Virus record (IMG/VR): IMGVR_UViG_3300048588_000642
Coordinates: 1-29,828 of that record
Strand: one strand, 5' to 3'
DNA length: 29,828 bases
Origin: a virus
The position numbers were made by a program, and so were the translations under genes. Position 1 is the stretch's first letter. The number at the start of each line of letters is the position of its first letter. Below the pieces are notes generated by a model. That model was not told where the DNA came from, did no database searches, and saw only the letters and a program-made list of their open reading frames with translations. Positions 1,664 through 22,107 of this stretch are shown in pieces.

Positions 1664-1696
1664 AAAAAAAGCCCCGACTGTAAGGGCAGCCGGGGC
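1664..1696 (-). terminator. Rho-independent terminator
   Basis: On the minus strand a 10-bp GC-rich stem (GCCCCGGCTG paired with CAGTCGGGGC, one G-U) closes a 6-nt loop and is followed by seven T residues. It ends leftward transcription coming from the early and cassette region. The fibre promoter begins immediately downstream, so the two insulate the structural genes from read-through. Confidence 0.85.
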
Positions 1697-1762
1697 AACT
1701 ATTATGAGTGAATTTAAAGACTATGCAAAAGTAAAAATTACGCAATGCGCTGAGGGCGCACT

Positions 1763-1825
1763 GCCCATAACTTACGCTAACTAGCACGGCTTGAGGCCGC
1801 GCCTGTTAGCTTTCAGTTATCGGTC
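1763..1825 (-). repeat. attC-like site A (about 63 bp)
   Basis: Imperfect inverted repeat directly after the stop of the 166-aa cassette gene. On the minus strand it opens with CCGATAAC and closes with GTTATGGGC. Inside these are a second pair, GCTAAC and GTTAGC, and a GGC/GCC stem around a 5-nt loop, with mismatched bulges between. Paired TAAC/GTTA cores, bulged arms and placement at the 3' end of an ORF are the classical layout of an integron attC site. It is shorter than sites B and C. Confidence 0.6.
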
Positions 1826-1828
1826 ATG

Positions 1829-2329
1829 CTAAAACGGCAAATCGTCATCATCTTGATTAGCCGTTTCGACAAGTTCACCTTGACTGCTAATTGACTGGGC
1901 AAAATCTATTTCCATATCAATGAAATCAAGCTCAATCTCATTTAAAAACTCTTCAACCATCATCTTAAATTCTAAATTGGTTGTAGGTTCTTTTTCAAAT
2001 TTCGTTTCGGGATTATATTCCCTTGTTTTGACATATTTTTTTCCATCACAAACAGAGCAACTAAGCATTATTAGTTTGTTTGGGTTTTCGACTAAGTAGC
2101 CAATAGATATTCCGTTTCCAGAAAAAAAGCGGCTACCATTTTTACCTATTTCAAAATCCAAAAAATATGACAATCCACCACAATGACCAGAGCCATCGGA
2201 GAATTTGCCGTAATAATTTGGTTGATGAAATTTTTCAGTAACAGGTGAATAGATACTGAAACGTGTGTCAATTAATTCAGGGTAAAACTTTCCTTTAGGC
2301 GACACTGATAATAATTTTACTTTTTCCAT
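1829..2329 (-). CDS. Cassette protein with SSB-like C-terminal tip (166 aa)
   Basis: Unknown family. The start at 2329 (MEKVKLLSVSPKG) is preferred over an upstream ATG at 2389, because the extra 20 codons would be read from attC-like site B and the chosen ATG has an A-rich leader like that of the neighbouring cassette. A Cys pair (CSVCDG) and a Gly/Ser/Phe-rich centre precede an acidic helical region. The protein ends NQDDDDLPF, which matches the acidic-hydrophobic tip of bacterial SSB used to recruit repair and replication partners; the body does not look like an SSB OB-fold. The gene lies between attC-like sites B and A, i.e. in cassette configuration, and is AT-rich relative to the phage core. 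Confidence 0.65.
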   Translation of the reverse strand: MEKVKLLSVSPKGKFYPELIDTRFSIYSPVTEKFHQPNYYGKFSDGSGHCGGLSYFLDFEIGKNGSRFFSGNGISIGYLVENPNKLIMLSCSVCDGKKYVKTREYNPETKFEKEPTTNLEFKMMVEEFLNEIELDFIDMEIDFAQSISSQGELVETANQDDDDLPF

Positions 2330-2362
2330 TTGTTTAAATTTTATTCGTTTGACAATGAAGCA

Positions 2363-2503
2363 CGAACCGATAACATGCGTTTGGCTCAATGGCGGGTTTA
2401 GTGCTTAATTGAGCTTTGTGCCTCGCATCGGCTTTTGTGGTATGTTGACAGTTCCGTGCTCCGAAAACCGCCACTGCGCCAAGCGCAACCACGTTAGCGG
2501 TCA
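2363..2503 (-). repeat. attC-like site B (about 140 bp)
   Basis: Long imperfect inverted repeat between two unrelated small genes. On the plus strand, CGAACCGATAAC at the left is mirrored by GTTAGCGGTC at the right. The arms continue as TTTGGCTCAATGGCGG against CCGCCACTGCGCCAAG with bulges. The right end touches the stop codon of the 81-aa cassette gene. The central part (2404-2442) resembles the centre of site C, including TTAATTGAGCT, so B and C are members of one repeat family, as in chromosomal integron arrays. Confidence 0.7.
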
Positions 2504-2746
2504 GGCTAAAACGACACCCTTCCGAAGTTTACCAGTTGAAGTGTATTGCTTTTTAATTCGCTTACCTTCTTTGACAAGCCATTCGCCAAGCTCTACTAAT
2601 TCGTCAGGGTTGCTAATTGAACTGAATGAAATGTCAAGGCTTACAATGTCGTAAGGCTCACGAGTTTCATCTTTTGCGTGTTCGTCAACTGTGATTTCTA
2701 CATCATCAATAGTTGGATGGTTGATTGTTTCTTTAATAAGTCCCAT
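2501..2746 (-). CDS. Cassette protein of unknown function (81 aa)
   Basis: Start chosen at 2746 (MGLIKETINHPTIDD). A longer frame exists to 2854, but its first 36 codons would be read through attC-like site C. The ATG follows an A-rich leader (TTTAAATAACAACAAA), similar to that of the other cassette gene. The product is small and acidic in the middle and basic at the end (GEWLVKEGKRIKKQY), with no membrane segment. I do not recognise it. Its TGA abuts the core of attC-like site B, the typical stop-codon position in integron gene cassettes. Confidence 0.6.
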   Translation of the reverse strand: MGLIKETINHPTIDDVEITVDEHAKDETREPYDIVSLDISFSSISNPDELVELGEWLVKEGKRIKKQYTSTGKLRKGVVLA

Positions 2747-2788
2747 TTTGTTGTTATTTAAAATTTTATACCCTTGTGAAAACAAGCC

Positions 2789-2924
2789 CGAACCGCTAAC
2801 AAGGGTTTGTAGCAATAGGGGCAGAAGTGCTTTAATTGAGCTGTGTACTTCCAATCAGCTTTGGTGGGTTATTGAACAGTAGTGCATCTAATCCCCTACT
2901 GCTACAAGCCCCGAACCGTTATAG
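2789..2924 (-). repeat. attC-like site C (about 135 bp)
   Basis: Imperfect inverted repeat. The plus-strand arms TTTGTAGCAATAGGGG and CCCCTACTGCTACAAG pair with one mismatch, and outside them lie CGAACCGCTAAC at the left and CGAACCGTTAT at the right. The TAA of the adjacent DUF4406 gene (2919-2921) is embedded in the outer TAACGG core. The centre (2831-2870) is related to the centre of site B. The structure fits the single-strand hairpin fold of attC sites. Confidence 0.7.
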
Positions 2925-3314
2925 TTGCTGTAAATTAGGTATCACTTTTCTAAATAGATGTTGTGTTTTTGTCGTGCCATTATATATCTCACTCTCGATC
3001 TTGATGTCAATTTTTAATTTAAGATCTTCTGTCGGGTAAAACACCTGCAATCCTATTTGTCTGGCCACTAATTCTTCTAACACAGCGCCTTTGCTTTCCA
3101 GCCAGTTGTGTAGCATATAAATAGCATCACACTCACACAGTGCTTTAATATCCTCGCGCATGTAGCTGTGCCATTCTTTATCATGCAAATGGGGCAAGGC
3201 TATCGGGTTTACAGGGGTGTGGCCTTGCTCTTTTAAAAAAGCTTCTGCCTTGGCAAATAGGGCGAGGGCTTGCTGCTCTATGCCGGTTATTTTTCCGGAG
3301 ATGTAGATTTTCAT
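2919..3314 (-). CDS. DUF4406-type protein (131 aa)
   Basis: Starts MKIYISGKITG, the typical opening of DUF4406 proteins (nucleoside deoxyribosyltransferase-like Rossmann fold), with HTPVNP, a WHSYMREDIKAL helix and CDAIYMLHNW. These positions correspond to the conserved core of the fold; a nucleotide-related role is inferred. An upstream in-frame ATG at 3398 would add a low-complexity Pro/His/Lys segment. The start at 3314 is preferred because a second copy at 4269-4481 begins at the same residue. The stop codon lies inside attC-like site C, so the 3' end may have been redefined by cassette insertion, or the gene may itself be a cassette. Confidence 0.75.
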   Translation of the reverse strand: MKIYISGKITGIEQQALALFAKAEAFLKEQGHTPVNPIALPHLHDKEWHSYMREDIKALCECDAIYMLHNWLESKGAVLEELVARQIGLQVFYPTEDLKLKIDIKIESEIYNGTTKTQHLFRKVIPNLQQL

Positions 3315-3404
3315 GCTTTTTGGAGGGGTTGGGGGTTTAACCACGTAATGTTTTGGCTCATGGTGTGGCTGCGTTTTACGTGGTGAATTGTTTTTCATTC
3401 TGTA

Positions 3405-3704
3405 TTAATCAGGTATTTTGGGCAATTCACCCTCTGACTCCCATTCTGATTTAACTATCCTGTATCTGTTCTTCTTGAGGAGTTCAAATAATTCTTCTGC
3501 GCATTTTTCGCAGAGTTCTACTTTGTCAATATCACCGCTTCCTCCTTCTATGTAGTTTGATCCTGTTATTCGTTTAACAACGCACTCAAAAACATCATAA
3601 AAACGCGGCTGTGTTATTACGTTATCGCATTTATCACACAGATTGTACCTGTCGGTAATAACATCAGCCTCTATTACTTTCTTAACACGATTGATTACTT
3701 CCAT
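3405..3704 (-). CDS. Small zinc-ribbon-like protein (99 aa)
   Basis: Two CxxC knuckles (CDKC near residue 23 and CEKC near residue 69), with a further single Cys between, suggest a zinc ribbon. The C-terminal third is helical and charged. It lies 3 nt downstream of the 165-aa gene and 6 nt ahead of an in-frame extension of the DUF4406 gene. Base composition is AT-richer than the structural genes, which fits an accessory origin. Function unknown. Confidence 0.6.
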   Translation of the reverse strand: MEVINRVKKVIEADVITDRYNLCDKCDNVITQPRFYDVFECVVKRITGSNYIEGGSGDIDKVELCEKCAEELFELLKKNRYRIVKSEWESEGELPKIPD

Positions 3705-3707
3705 AAA

Positions 3708-4205
3708 TTAAGCTGTTTGTCTAAGGAATTTTGTTTTTGATATATAATAACCCGCACTTTGGGCGTCTTCAAGGAAGATCGAAGCCGCGTCCTGGGAAAG
3801 AACGAGTTTTTTTCTTTCCTTTCCGTACCCCTCAACGTGTTCCCGACCTGCCTGGTCTGTAAAAACGCAGCTGAATTCTTGGAACGGGTCTGGCCTATTT
3901 TCGCGCCTTATTATTTTAAGCTGCATGGTTGGGTTGTTAGGCAGAATTTCAATCAATATGGTGTAATAACGCCTAATCTTTATTCTTCTCAACCTATCAG
4001 TCCATCGTGTGTATACGCTTAATTCTAGTAAAAGGATTTTTTTTTGATCGAATTTCAGTGAATCGATTCTATCCATTAATTTAAAAAACTTAGGTCCGCT
4101 ATCTGTCTTTTCGTGCTTTTCTCTGAGTATTCTAAGGGTATCCCAGAACTCGTTTATCTCGTTTTGTTGCGATGCATTTAATTCTGTTGGCTCGTAATGA
4201 TTCAT
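3708..4205 (-). CDS. Hypothetical accessory protein (165 aa)
   Basis: Unrecognised. The N-terminal half is predicted helical and charged; the middle has a basic patch (RWTDRLRRIKIRRYY), then a beta-rich part, ending with a short helix and basic tail. No membrane segment or signal peptide. The start is preceded by a run of ten A residues (minus strand), a leader type shared by several genes of this accessory block. The gene and its 99-aa partner sit between two copies of the DUF4406 gene. Confidence 0.6.
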   Translation of the reverse strand: MNHYEPTELNASQQNEINEFWDTLRILREKHEKTDSGPKFFKLMDRIDSLKFDQKKILLLELSVYTRWTDRLRRIKIRRYYTILIEILPNNPTMQLKIIRRENRPDPFQEFSCVFTDQAGREHVEGYGKERKKLVLSQDAASIFLEDAQSAGYYISKTKFLRQTA

Positions 4206-4268
4206 TTTTTTTTTGTTTTTAAAGAGTAAATATAAAATTGTTTTTAGCCTGGCACCTTTGCTGGCTTG

Positions 4269-4481
4269 CTAGTTGTGTAGCATATAAATAGCATCACACG
4301 CGCACAGCGCTTTAATATCCTCGCGCATGTAGCTATGCCATTCTTTATCATGCAAGTGGGGCAGGGCCATCGGGTTTACCGGGGTGTGGCCTTGCTCTTT
4401 TAAAAAAGCTTCTGCCTTGGCAAATAGGGCAAGGGCCTCTTGCTCTATGCCCGTAATCTTTCCGGAGATGTATATCCGCAT
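4269..4481 (-). pseudogene. Truncated second copy of the DUF4406 gene (70 codons)
   Basis: Residues 1-70 are almost identical to the first 70 of the copy at 2919-3314, from MRIYISGKITG to CDAIYMLHN. The frame then stops with TAG where the intact copy continues with Trp. Weak nucleotide similarity continues for roughly 15-20 bp past the stop and then ends. The second half of the domain is missing, so this is probably a decayed duplicate. Short open products from it cannot be excluded. Confidence 0.75.
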
Positions 4482-4486
4482 CGCTT

Positions 4487-4729
4487 TTAAATCTTAGATT
4501 TTAAATTTTCATTCTCAACATAAACCACCCCATCCTTCAAATACCCGCCAAACCTTTTCAGGTCACTATACCCCGGCCATAAAATGTAGGGGCCTTCAAA
4601 ATTTCCCGTGTTCGGGCTGCGCAAATAATACGTGCTATGCTTCACGTCATTGCCATCCGCAAAGTCGCTGCGCAAAGCCTTCCGCAGTTGTTTGGTAAAA
4701 ACGTATTCTAATTCTTGTATTTCATCCAT
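4487..4729 (-). CDS. Hypothetical protein (80 aa)
   Basis: Starts at 4729 (MDEIQELEYVFTKQL), 2 nt after the stop of the preceding zinc-ribbon gene; an upstream ATG at 4774 would overlap that gene by about 40 nt. The product has a helical N-terminus and an aromatic, beta-type C-terminal half (GPYILWPGYSDLKRFGGYL). No known motif is recognised. It lies 5 nt ahead of the truncated DUF4406 copy and is likely part of the same leftward transcript. Confidence 0.6.
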   Translation of the reverse strand: MDEIQELEYVFTKQLRKALRSDFADGNDVKHSTYYLRSPNTGNFEGPYILWPGYSDLKRFGGYLKDGVVYVENENLKSKI

Positions 4730-4731
4730 GG

Positions 4732-4929
4732 CTATAGTATAGGTTTCCAGAAACGCAACTTTGTCCTGCCGCAATAAGGGCAGCGCACCGGCAGCTCATG
4801 CTTTTCGTAACCACAAACGCTAGTGTCATCAACCAAAGCAACTTTTTTGTTTTTGCTGATGTAAGCAACTCTTTTGTTTTTAGTGTTTACGCACGCAGTA
4901 CAAATCCGATCAAGGTCATTTTCTGCCAT
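4732..4929 (-). CDS. Small zinc-ribbon protein (65 aa)
   Basis: Four Cys arranged as CTAC near residue 10 and CPYCGR near residue 50 (with an extra Cys at VCGYEKH) form a probable zinc ribbon. The rest is basic. It is the first gene after the iteron region and its ATG is preceded by an A9 tract in the minus-strand leader. Small zinc ribbons near phage origins are often regulatory or DNA-binding, but no specific function can be assigned. Confidence 0.6.
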   Translation of the reverse strand: MAENDLDRICTACVNTKNKRVAYISKNKKVALVDDTSVCGYEKHELPVRCPYCGRTKLRFWKPIL

Positions 4930-4980
4930 TTCTATTTTTTTTTAGTGATTTCAAACTTGCCCAAGGGGTCGTTTTTCCGC

Positions 4981-5134
4981 CCCAACCTTCCCAACTCTCC
5001 CAACTTTGGGCGTTTTATGGCGCTCTTCCCAACCCGTCCCAACTTTTACTATTTGTATTTAAAGAAAAAAAAAGTATTAATTCATTCATTATTAGCTTGT
5101 TAGCTGTCAGGTTGGGAAGGTTGGGAGAGTTGGG
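4981..5134. other. Iteron cluster, candidate replication origin
   Basis: Eight copies of the hexamer CCCAAC occur at near-helical spacing. Five read on the plus strand (4981, 4990, 4999, 5028, 5038; steps of 9, 9, 29 and 10). Three read on the minus strand (GTTGGG at 5111, 5120, 5129; steps of 9). The oppositely oriented arrays flank an AT-rich stretch (5044-5100) containing A9 and a repeated TTCATTCATTATTA-like segment. Iterons beside an AT-rich unwinding region, next to the helicase gene, are the classical layout of an iteron-type origin. The function is inferred. Confidence 0.65.
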
Positions 5135-5179
5135 AGCGTTTTTCATCTTTTGGCAAGGGCTAAACAGTTTTTTTTTTCA

Positions 5180-7345
5180 TCAAAAAGGCAAATCATCCTC
5201 CTTACCATCAACCACCAGTGGCGCACTAACCGCCCCGGCTTCTAAGCTCTTGCTCCGGCTAAGCGTAATGCCCAACGCCTCAAAATCAAAAATGTGGGCG
5301 CTCGTCTTAATGCTCGTGTGCTCAAGGTTGCCATCCTGCGTGCTGCGCGTTTTTACAAAATGCTCGCTGTTTATATACCCGAGGTAATACGCGCGGTTTT
5401 TCAAGTAGCTGGTTAAGCTGGTTAAATCAATGGCGCCCATGCCCATGCTGCGCTTAAAGCGTGCATACAACTGCTGCACGTTTTTAAGGCGCAGGTAAAG
5501 CACCTCTTTGGTGTCACCCAAATCATGATCATAATCGCCATCATCACCCGTCATGCGCAGCAAGCGCTTATCTTTAATGTTGTAGTGCTCGCCCTCGCGC
5601 AGCAAGCCCTCGCCAAACAAGGTCTCCACCGTAGTCCACCAGTCCGTAAGCACATCATTGGTGCTAATCATGGCGCTCATCATCAGCACCTCTTCAACCG
5701 CCCATTGGCGGTAGGCCGCGCTCTTCCATGGCAGCGTTAAGGCACTCTCATTAAAAAACTCATACAGTGTAACCAGTGCGGCATAGTTGCGCAGCACCCG
5801 CTCATTATAGCTCTTGCCCAAATTGCGGATGGTGTTGGCCATGGCCTTCATCGTTTCGTTAAAACGCGGGTAATATTCGCGCTCCAACTTTGGCCGGTGC
5901 TGCAGCAGCTCCGTAAGGCAGCCGCTCAAACCTTCCTTTTCGGCCAGCTTCAAAAAGTCATACGCATCGTTTTGCTCTTTGCTGCGCTTTTCTTTTTTAT
6001 GAAAAACCCGCATCACGCTGCGGCTCAATACGCTGTTATCATCCTTTGTGGACAAATACTGTCCAACCAAAATCAAAGCGCTGTTTACCCGCATAATCTC
6101 CGTTTTGCGCTTGCTGCCACCCTTGCCGCGTTCTCGGCCCTCCCCATCATAGGCGCCTTTTATGGCCTGAAACCACTCATCTTTTACCACCTGATCATCA
6201 AACTCATTCAAAAAAACTGGGCAGTTTTTAAACCGGGCAAGCCTATTGGCAAAGGCAAAATCAGTACCGCTATTCAGGTTAAAGGCGGGTAATTCTTTAA
6301 AAAAGAGGTTGGTAATACTCTCCGCAAACTTGCTCTTGCCGCTCTGGCTGGCACCGTAGCAATACAGGTGGGGGCAGTTGTTATCTACCTTAAAAACCAA
6401 ATCTTTAAAGAGGCTAACCAGGCTAAAGCCCACACCACTCAGCGCATGATCATCATACGCCAACTTCATTTTATTGCACCACGTTTCAAACGTAATGCTG
6501 CTGGGCGCATAGGCCAGATAACGGTCATTTTCATACATGTCATCCTCCAACCTAAAACCCGCGTAAATGGTACTGCCTGCCGGGCTAAAAAAGTGCTTGC
6601 CGATATGCTCAACCAAACCAACTTCATTATAAGGCTCAAGCTTGCCATTAAAGGTGTGGTTAAACCAGGCAAAAAAGCCCTCTGTTTGCCATCCCAATGT
6701 TTTCAACTCAAACGCCTTGGGGAAATCTTGCAAATACCTCAGTTGTATTTTGTGCAGTTGCTGCTGGTTGCCAAAAAACAGAAACGTGCCCTTGTCAAAT
6801 AGAAACTTTTTAAACTGATCTACACTCACCATGGCGCTGCTGGGCATTTCTACCACCTCTGGTGCGTTAACACCATTGTCAATCTTAATCACACGGGTAT
6901 TATCATCCTGATCATACTTGTGGAAGATGGGCGTCAAAACGAAATTGCACACGCTCTGAAAACCGCTATTGCCATTCTGGAAGTAGTACCCGGTTTTCTC
7001 ACCATCCGTAAGGGTAAAAAAGCCCCACCTAAAAAACTCATCCTTATCCGCACCACTAGGCCACCTCAGGCCGTTGCTAGTATCATCAACCACCACCACA
7101 TCAAGCTCCTGCTTTTGCTTCATGCTGGCCTTAATGTTTTTAATGGGCACCTTAATCAAGGCCGCCACCTGCTTGGTGTACTCATCGCGGATTAAATCGC
7201 CAGGCACACTATACAGCACCTCCACCACCTTATCAAGCGCATCTTGGCGCGCATGGGCATCCGTAGCATTGGCAAACAAATTTTTAGCGAGGCACAAAAT
7301 GCCATCCTCTTTATACGTGAACAGGTACTCTGTAAATGCGGTCAT
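5180..7345 (-). CDS. Replicative helicase-type ATPase (SF3/DUF927-like, 721 aa)
   Basis: Residues 331-338 (GASQSGKS) form a Walker A and residues about 376-384 (PVFLNEFDD) a Walker B, followed by a hydrophobic sensor strand (near 422-432) and an Arg-finger-like SRSVMRVF (near 441-448). This order fits SF3-like/DUF927 helicases fused to or paired with phage primases. The first ~75 residues (RDEYTKQVAALIKVP) resemble the segment that follows Toprim in DnaG, which the nearby primase lacks. The C-terminus is KEDDLPF, an SSB-like acidic tip, unusual for a helicase. Probable role: origin unwinding during phage DNA replication, with the iteron region just downstream as candidate origin. Confidence 0.8.
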   Translation of the reverse strand: MTAFTEYLFTYKEDGILCLAKNLFANATDAHARQDALDKVVEVLYSVPGDLIRDEYTKQVAALIKVPIKNIKASMKQKQELDVVVVDDTSNGLRWPSGADKDEFFRWGFFTLTDGEKTGYYFQNGNSGFQSVCNFVLTPIFHKYDQDDNTRVIKIDNGVNAPEVVEMPSSAMVSVDQFKKFLFDKGTFLFFGNQQQLHKIQLRYLQDFPKAFELKTLGWQTEGFFAWFNHTFNGKLEPYNEVGLVEHIGKHFFSPAGSTIYAGFRLEDDMYENDRYLAYAPSSITFETWCNKMKLAYDDHALSGVGFSLVSLFKDLVFKVDNNCPHLYCYGASQSGKSKFAESITNLFFKELPAFNLNSGTDFAFANRLARFKNCPVFLNEFDDQVVKDEWFQAIKGAYDGEGRERGKGGSKRKTEIMRVNSALILVGQYLSTKDDNSVLSRSVMRVFHKKEKRSKEQNDAYDFLKLAEKEGLSGCLTELLQHRPKLEREYYPRFNETMKAMANTIRNLGKSYNERVLRNYAALVTLYEFFNESALTLPWKSAAYRQWAVEEVLMMSAMISTNDVLTDWWTTVETLFGEGLLREGEHYNIKDKRLLRMTGDDGDYDHDLGDTKEVLYLRLKNVQQLYARFKRSMGMGAIDLTSLTSYLKNRAYYLGYINSEHFVKTRSTQDGNLEHTSIKTSAHIFDFEALGITLSRSKSLEAGAVSAPLVVDGKEDDLPF

Positions 7346-22031: not shown

Positions 22032-22035
22032 GGAG

Positions 22036-22107
22036 AAAGGGGGCCGGGATTCCAACCCGGATGCAAGCCGCCAGAGCAGCCCTGTGTTGCCATTACACCA
22101 CCCCCTT
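22036..22107 (-). tRNA. tRNA-Gln-like gene with irregular anticodon arm
   Basis: Acceptor (AAGGGGG/CCCCCTT), D arm (GTGT-AATGGCA-ACAC) and T arm (CCGGG-TTGGAAT-CCCGG) fold well, and the D arm resembles tRNA-Gln. The anticodon arm pairs only as a 5-bp stem with an 8-nt loop (GCTCTGGC) or as a 6-bp stem with a 6-nt loop, with several G-U pairs. CTG is the best anticodon candidate. The T loop has G where C56 is nearly universal. No CCA is encoded. Confidence 0.65.

Follow-up and report, generated by a model that had tools for sequence, protein, structure and literature searches.

A CALIN-like cassette array, very probably mobile, in a phage of Bacteroidota

In an integron cassette, the inner box of the site pairs with the box found at the start of the same cassette. 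Cassettes may also lie at G|TT outside an integron, an arrangement known as attG insertion. Such secondary-site (attG) insertion of cassettes is named in the accessible part of PMC12901181. The authors of IntegronFinder, who recognise IntI by its extra domain, reported few integrons in Bacteroidetes. CALINs (clusters of attC sites lacking an integrase) and integrons were also previously known from phages, Polaribacter phage P12002L being an example in the accessible part of Qi et al. (2023; PMC9892861).

The locus described here belongs to the window, i.e., the whole 29.8-kb stretch of DNA analysed, a linear virus record that holds an incomplete phage genome. The terminase has its closest relatives in Microcystis-labelled and Flavobacterium phages, and the virus infects Bacteroidota bacteria. 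One segment of the window is, with high probability, a mobile integron-type cassette array without a recombinase of its own (CALIN-like), placed at the end of a phage operon and filled in trans. Site homology, covariation, box complementarity and the extra cassette of a sister phage together indicate integron-type cassettes without a recombinase in the sequence. The CALIN-like cluster that the original prediction had placed in this phage was thereby borne out, by matches to a covariance model (R1) as well as by covariation, box complementarity and the exact unit present in the sister.

Layout of the array and structure of its sites

Along the - strand, the array region runs from the DUF4406 gene through site C, the 81-aa ORF, site B, the 166-aa ORF and hairpin A to a probable terminator (Table 1); as the stem and T run of the latter lie just beyond site A, the array probably occupies an operon's 3' end. 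The stop codons originally noted at the repeats are indeed there, the TGA of the 81-aa gene abutting site B and the TAA of the DUF4406 gene lying inside the outer box of site C. Three cassette genes had been counted in the original prediction; the window has two cassettes, and the DUF4406 gene, whose stop codon sits at the right cassette junction, is flanking phage sequence and not cassette cargo.

Table 1. Positions of the array components and neighbouring features in the window
Feature	Positions	Strand	Description and evidence
Probable intrinsic terminator	1664..1698	-	stem then T run, just past site A; sequence
Site A	1763..1822	+	hairpin GCTAACTAGCACGGC-ttgag-GCCGCGCCTGTTAGC, then TTTCAG|TT; sequence, fold, sister indel
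Cassette 1	1817..2493	+	antisense ORF1 and site B body; crossovers G1816|T1817, G2493|T2494
ORF1, 166 aa	1829..2329	-	without family match; SSB-type acidic tip NQDDDDLPF at C-terminus
Site B, attC-like	2366..2501	+ polarity	R1 108.9 bits, E 1.4e-25
Cassette 2	2494..2918	+	antisense ORF2 and site C body; crossovers G2493|T2494, G2918|T2919
ORF2, 81 aa	2501..2746	-	without family match
Site C, attC-like	2792..2926	+ polarity	R1 102.2 bits, E 7e-24
DUF4406 / nucleoside 2-deoxyribosyltransferase-like phage gene	2919..3398	-	PF14359 4e-24; phrog_355

A homologue of ORF1 with 84% amino acid identity is found in IMGVR_UViG_3300044994_000363, and at the DNA level ORF1 is recognised at 86.5% identity in a phage other than that of the window, with the homology stopping exactly at G1816. 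The frame of ORF2 continues without a stop upstream, across the box of site C (reading ..LVSGSGLFSQGYK..); the sister phage gave the sole match to ORF2, and the bacterial genomes searched gave none. Comparison of the cargo genes with PADLOC and Pfam gave nothing above chance, an Rfam scan of the window returned no match, and no DNA resembling the array was found in phage isolates.

Other features of the window were recorded as well. The DUF4406 gene is partly duplicated (3085-3321 versus 4252-4488, 88% identical), the second copy being truncated after ..AIYMLHN, and the SSB-like acidic tip of ORF1 (..DDDDLPF) is shared with a large protein of the primase region (5180-7345, ..EDDLPF). At 4981-5140, 24-nt inverted repeats of CCCAACCTTCCCAACTCTCCCAAC stand 109 nt apart, as a possible origin or regulator site, and at 22035-22107 ARAGORN calls a tRNA-like gene whose anticodon has two bases.

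With regard to the three inverted repeats originally proposed, sites B and C are indeed long and imperfect, with outer TAAC/GTTA, and placed as described, but site A stands outside their family. The homology foreseen for the centres of B and C amounts to 77% over 44 nt, and to 73% over 88 nt. A scan with an attC-type covariance model, R1, built from bacterial chromosomes only, matched both of them and gave no match for site A. The latter, with CTAAC/GTTAG, is an unrelated hairpin and not an attC of the B/C family; its exact sequence was found outside the window only in the sister phage. Fold prediction, suggested as a check, supported the hairpin of site A (DNA fold z -2.5 on the + strand and -4.5 on the - strand) but, for B and C each folded on its own, showed no significant advantage over shuffled sequences (z -0.9 to -1.7). 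The strong structural support for B and C is the covariation across the family, not their single folds. In an alignment of 47 bacterial sites, the outer AAC and CGTT are invariant and a 17-pair stem stands 1-2 nt from R'' and 5-6 nt from R'; 16 of the 17 pairs vary on both sides, 95.7% of cells are paired and the covariation score is 0.69, versus 0.15 when shuffled and <=0.10 when slid.

In the window, spacers of 1-2 nt inside R'' and 5-6 nt inside R' give B and C a + polarity, and every gene of the array region lies on the opposite, - strand. The genes had been assumed to share the orientation of attC; model R1 and the spacers place them antisense instead. An ordinary gene-then-attC polarity was considered for the window and rejected, since model R1, the spacers and the position at which the sister indel breaks all disagree with it. 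The R' boxes of the window (GTTATCG, GTTAGCG and GTTATAG) depart from the strict GTTRRRY, the family consensus being GTTANNGG, and 1x1 mismatches stand where canonical attC has bulged extrahelical bases.

Sites B and C are homologous to hundreds of sites elsewhere, which form arrays in viral contigs and bacterial genomes. Homologues of site B, 78-88% identical, occur in many Bacteroidota genomes; for site C, Pedobacter segetis and four further viral contigs hold sites that are 88-94% identical. Apart from the sister, the DNA pattern of the B/C centre matches four viral contigs, as well as P. segetis and a Saprospiraceae MAG, and a DNA search placed one site on an Empedobacter plasmid. Whole-genome searches found sites, often clustered, in 23 of 251 Pedobacter-family genomes and in 46 of 199 Saprospiraceae-order genomes. 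The search for the same repeat beside unrelated genes, proposed from the outset, was in this way answered positively across Bacteroidota genomes, phages and one plasmid. Two bacterial loci deserve a separate mention: in one array (L099), equal-length ORFs with the same N-terminus at 2567-3466 and 4118-5017 suggest a cassette duplication, and in a bacterial chromosome (L101, 6176-6597) a phage-type cassette (leader ..ADAGQVAPPDAKHLL..) adjoins an ordinary array.

Whole-cassette differences between closely related phages

Both cassettes of the window show the box pairing of integron cassettes. The own-start box of cassette 1, GTTATCGGT at 1816, perfectly complements ACCGATAAC at 2366-2374, as does that of cassette 2, GTTAGCGGT at 2493, with ACCGCTAAC at 2792-2800; among the 434 TAAC/GTTA pairs present at cassette distance on the + strand of the window, these are the only 2 perfect 9-nt complements. 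In the family counts, for which viral contigs, some possibly related, were picked by site pattern among the matches listed, the six variable box bases fully match the own start in 44 of 88 viral cassettes (among the matches listed) and 40 of 58 bacterial ones, against 5/88 (again among the matches listed) and 2/58 in the control, where the adjacent box replaces the own start.

The sister contig IMGVR_UViG_3300048591_001064 is ~99.9% identical to the window and ~249 bp longer. Its surplus is exactly one cassette, composed of a 58-bp site, whose 11-bp stem pairs perfectly, and a 59-aa ORF, with boxes GTTATACGT and ACGTATAAC that are perfect complements; the resulting count of three cassettes versus two in the window rests on two metagenome assemblies. 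This cassette is inserted at CAG|TTAT beside hairpin A, the first position in the site polarity, and the indel breakpoint falls within the shared GTTAT at 1816-1820. From this one indel between metagenome contigs, site A may be regarded as a putative recipient (attI/attG-like) site, and the ancestor would have carried hairpin A directly after the DUF4406 stop codon (..CAACTATAAC|TGAAAGC..). A search with the site A pattern for an empty site found it only in the sister, with no cassette-free version, and L240, a relative with neighbouring tail genes, carries a different gene there. A search for related phages lacking the segment had been suggested as a check; the near-identical sister does differ by a whole unit, but none was found with the segment empty.

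Gain or loss of whole cassettes at G|TT is seen in the sister phage and also in cultivated Polaribacter phage Freya. The isolates compared (Freya_1, 2, 5, 6, 8, 9 and 10), from one host, hold 0.5 to 5.5 kb in the interval upstream of the annotated integrase and differ from one another in entire inserts placed at a single G|TT point (..AAC|ACCCCTATAAC..) immediately upstream of it; the inserts are nested as a series, and Freya_8 and Freya_10 additionally show one internal difference of 902 bp. In Freya, R1 matches the strand that does not carry the genes, mostly with weak scores (15-37 bits), and the G|TT breakpoints of Freya and the sister have just 3-11 bp of homology. The published account of the Freya genomes (44.0-48.9 kb) interprets the integrase as pointing to a temperate lifestyle, and a search of its text found no mention of integrons or cassettes (PMC8776804). 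Phage Leef_1 has a layout similar to Freya, and P12002L has one R1 site (39117-39250, +, E 8e-7) with antisense genes.

Inverted genes and the associated recombinase

Gene orientation was counted on the longest ORF between consecutive same-polarity sites. With ORFs called mechanically, 71 of 79 viral cassettes among the matches listed are antisense and 8 sense, whereas the bacterial cassettes of the same site family are sense in 73 of 74 cases and antisense in 1 (Fisher p 6e-33, viral contigs among the matches listed). The contrast holds at the contig level (40:3 for viral contigs among the matches listed versus 0:38 for bacterial ones, p 6e-20), and one site subtype is sense in bacteria and antisense in phages. 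These counts bear on the reading of the array as a fossil, in which part of a chromosomal integron of bacteria was moved once by illegitimate recombination and is now immobile. Such a fossil agrees with sites of the same family as the bacterial arrays, with the absence of a detected recombinase and with the boxes of the integrated sites, which are mismatched as in any array; it is disfavoured by the exact one-unit difference in the sister and by the antisense genes of the window, which resemble other phage cassettes and not the sense bacterial ones, and is thus very improbable.

An ORF starts within the site, on the same strand, at 98 of 166 viral sites among the matches listed versus 11 of 141 bacterial sites. 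Since ORF starts lie inside the site, unrelated phage proteins have common leaders (..FAKPVLG|AVP, ..HKADVS|GS and ..DANRLLA|DV). Judging from these sequences, the phage site would double as a portable start module for its gene, which would in turn explain the inversion of genes in phages. The inverted orientation together with starts inside the site is new as far as found in the open-access literature. As the element so often covers a phage gene start, a 5' regulatory role is likely too. That the sites are nothing but attC lookalikes with a role in transcription or translation (terminators or 5' regulatory elements), their genes differing via homologous recombination between repeats, is nevertheless a most improbable account, given that it leaves unexplained the complementarity of R'' to the start of its own cassette and the short homology at the G|TT breakpoints, and that a tyrosine recombinase adjoins several arrays.

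A profile from bacterial recombinases found no recombinase in the window, the sister or the extending contigs, and the array of the window has no linked integron integrase. Six viral arrays among the matches listed have a tyrosine recombinase at the first-position end, divergent from the site polarity, and share a similar junction upstream of the first cassette, roughly ACATATATA..AG|TT (attI-like); the left flank of the window is without this motif. In L013, L164 and L177 the recombinase gene is incomplete, runs off the end of the locus or is deleted. In L013 (9866-11113) its N-terminal part stands beside the array, with an HNH-type ORF next to it and no C-terminal part seen nearby, and in L177 (1974-2585) the catalytic middle is deleted in a recombinase still adjoining a two-site array. 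In bacteria, the recombinase is upstream of the array and codirectional in L099, L102 and L106, and in L117 a site lies 430 bp behind it. With no recombinase found and a flank devoid of the attI-like motif, the cassettes of the window are best read as secondary G|TT insertions by a recombinase acting in trans; the secondary-site insertion originally proposed is plausible given this flank, but no empty site was found.

The phage recombinase aligns end to end with archaeal XerA and in two pieces with IntI4, of which ~48 residues are skipped, and it scores below the cut-offs of both integron and Xer models. Against TIGR02249 (cut-off 265), the associated recombinases reach 153-223 bits, the profile being matched in two pieces with its 183-237 missing, and show neither the IntI-specific extra domain (I2) nor the curated score. 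The use of TIGR02249 as a test of true integrases was dropped, as sub-cut-off matches were obtained everywhere, including in 14 of 14 controls, and only the two-piece pattern was used as a criterion. A single-strand (HUH/IS200-like) or Xer-type element, not related to integrons, has little probability: the IntI insertion is indeed missing from the associated recombinases, most of which reach slightly higher scores with XerA-type models, but a recombinase, an attI and a cassette array with box pairing make up an integron architecture, and unsystematic inspection around the arrays brought no HUH protein to notice.

For mobile cassettes filled in trans, the preferred reading, the following mechanism may be envisaged. 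The units 1817-2493 and 2494-2918, each made of an attC-like hairpin and one small gene, would be circularisable and would have been inserted successively at G|TT, at the 3' end of the phage operon beside hairpin A. The tyrosine recombinase, provided in trans by the host or by a co-infecting phage, would be of the IntI-like, I2-less type that is seen beside arrays of this kind; like IntI, it would use the folded strand of the site and make its cut within the R' box. Inversion of the gene relative to the site would allow it to be read along phage transcription. More generally, it seems fairly likely that Bacteroidota phages run a distinct and actively exchanging integron lineage, with a short, I2-less tyrosine recombinase, an attI beside it and a 5' attC that gives a start codon and an N-terminal leader to the antisense gene; its active exchange is read from the Freya isolates and from the window and its sister. 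If this is true, cassette recombination at hairpin sites does not need the IntI insertion.

Comparison with known systems

Sequence by itself makes cassette turnover in phages visible here, both in metagenomes and in named isolates, and the variation of phage genomes is thereby tied to an integron-like engine that may escape searches based on the extra domain of IntI. Two questions become testable: the need for the I2 insertion in recombination at folded sites, and the way in which promoterless cassettes are expressed, the phage site itself appearing to start the gene. The nearest precedent, as far as the accessible part of PMC9892861 (Qi et al., 2023) goes, shares the occurrence of cassettes and attC-like sites in virulent phages that have no integrase; that part differs in presenting neither systematic gene inversion, nor a gene start inside attC, nor the I2-less recombinase class, nor cassette presence and absence in near-identical phages. 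With attG insertion, site A of the window shares a G|TT outside an integron, while the recipient is the end of a phage operon and the recombinase is of another class. The phage recombinase is without the ~48 aa of the insertion that makes up the extra domain of IntI, strict GTTRRRY is not kept, 1x1 mismatches replace the bulged bases and phage genes are inverted; with canonical integrons the phage arrays nonetheless have in common folded sites whose structure is conserved more than their sequence, circular cassettes whose boxes pair, an ordered insertion beside attI and an integrase at the head of the array.
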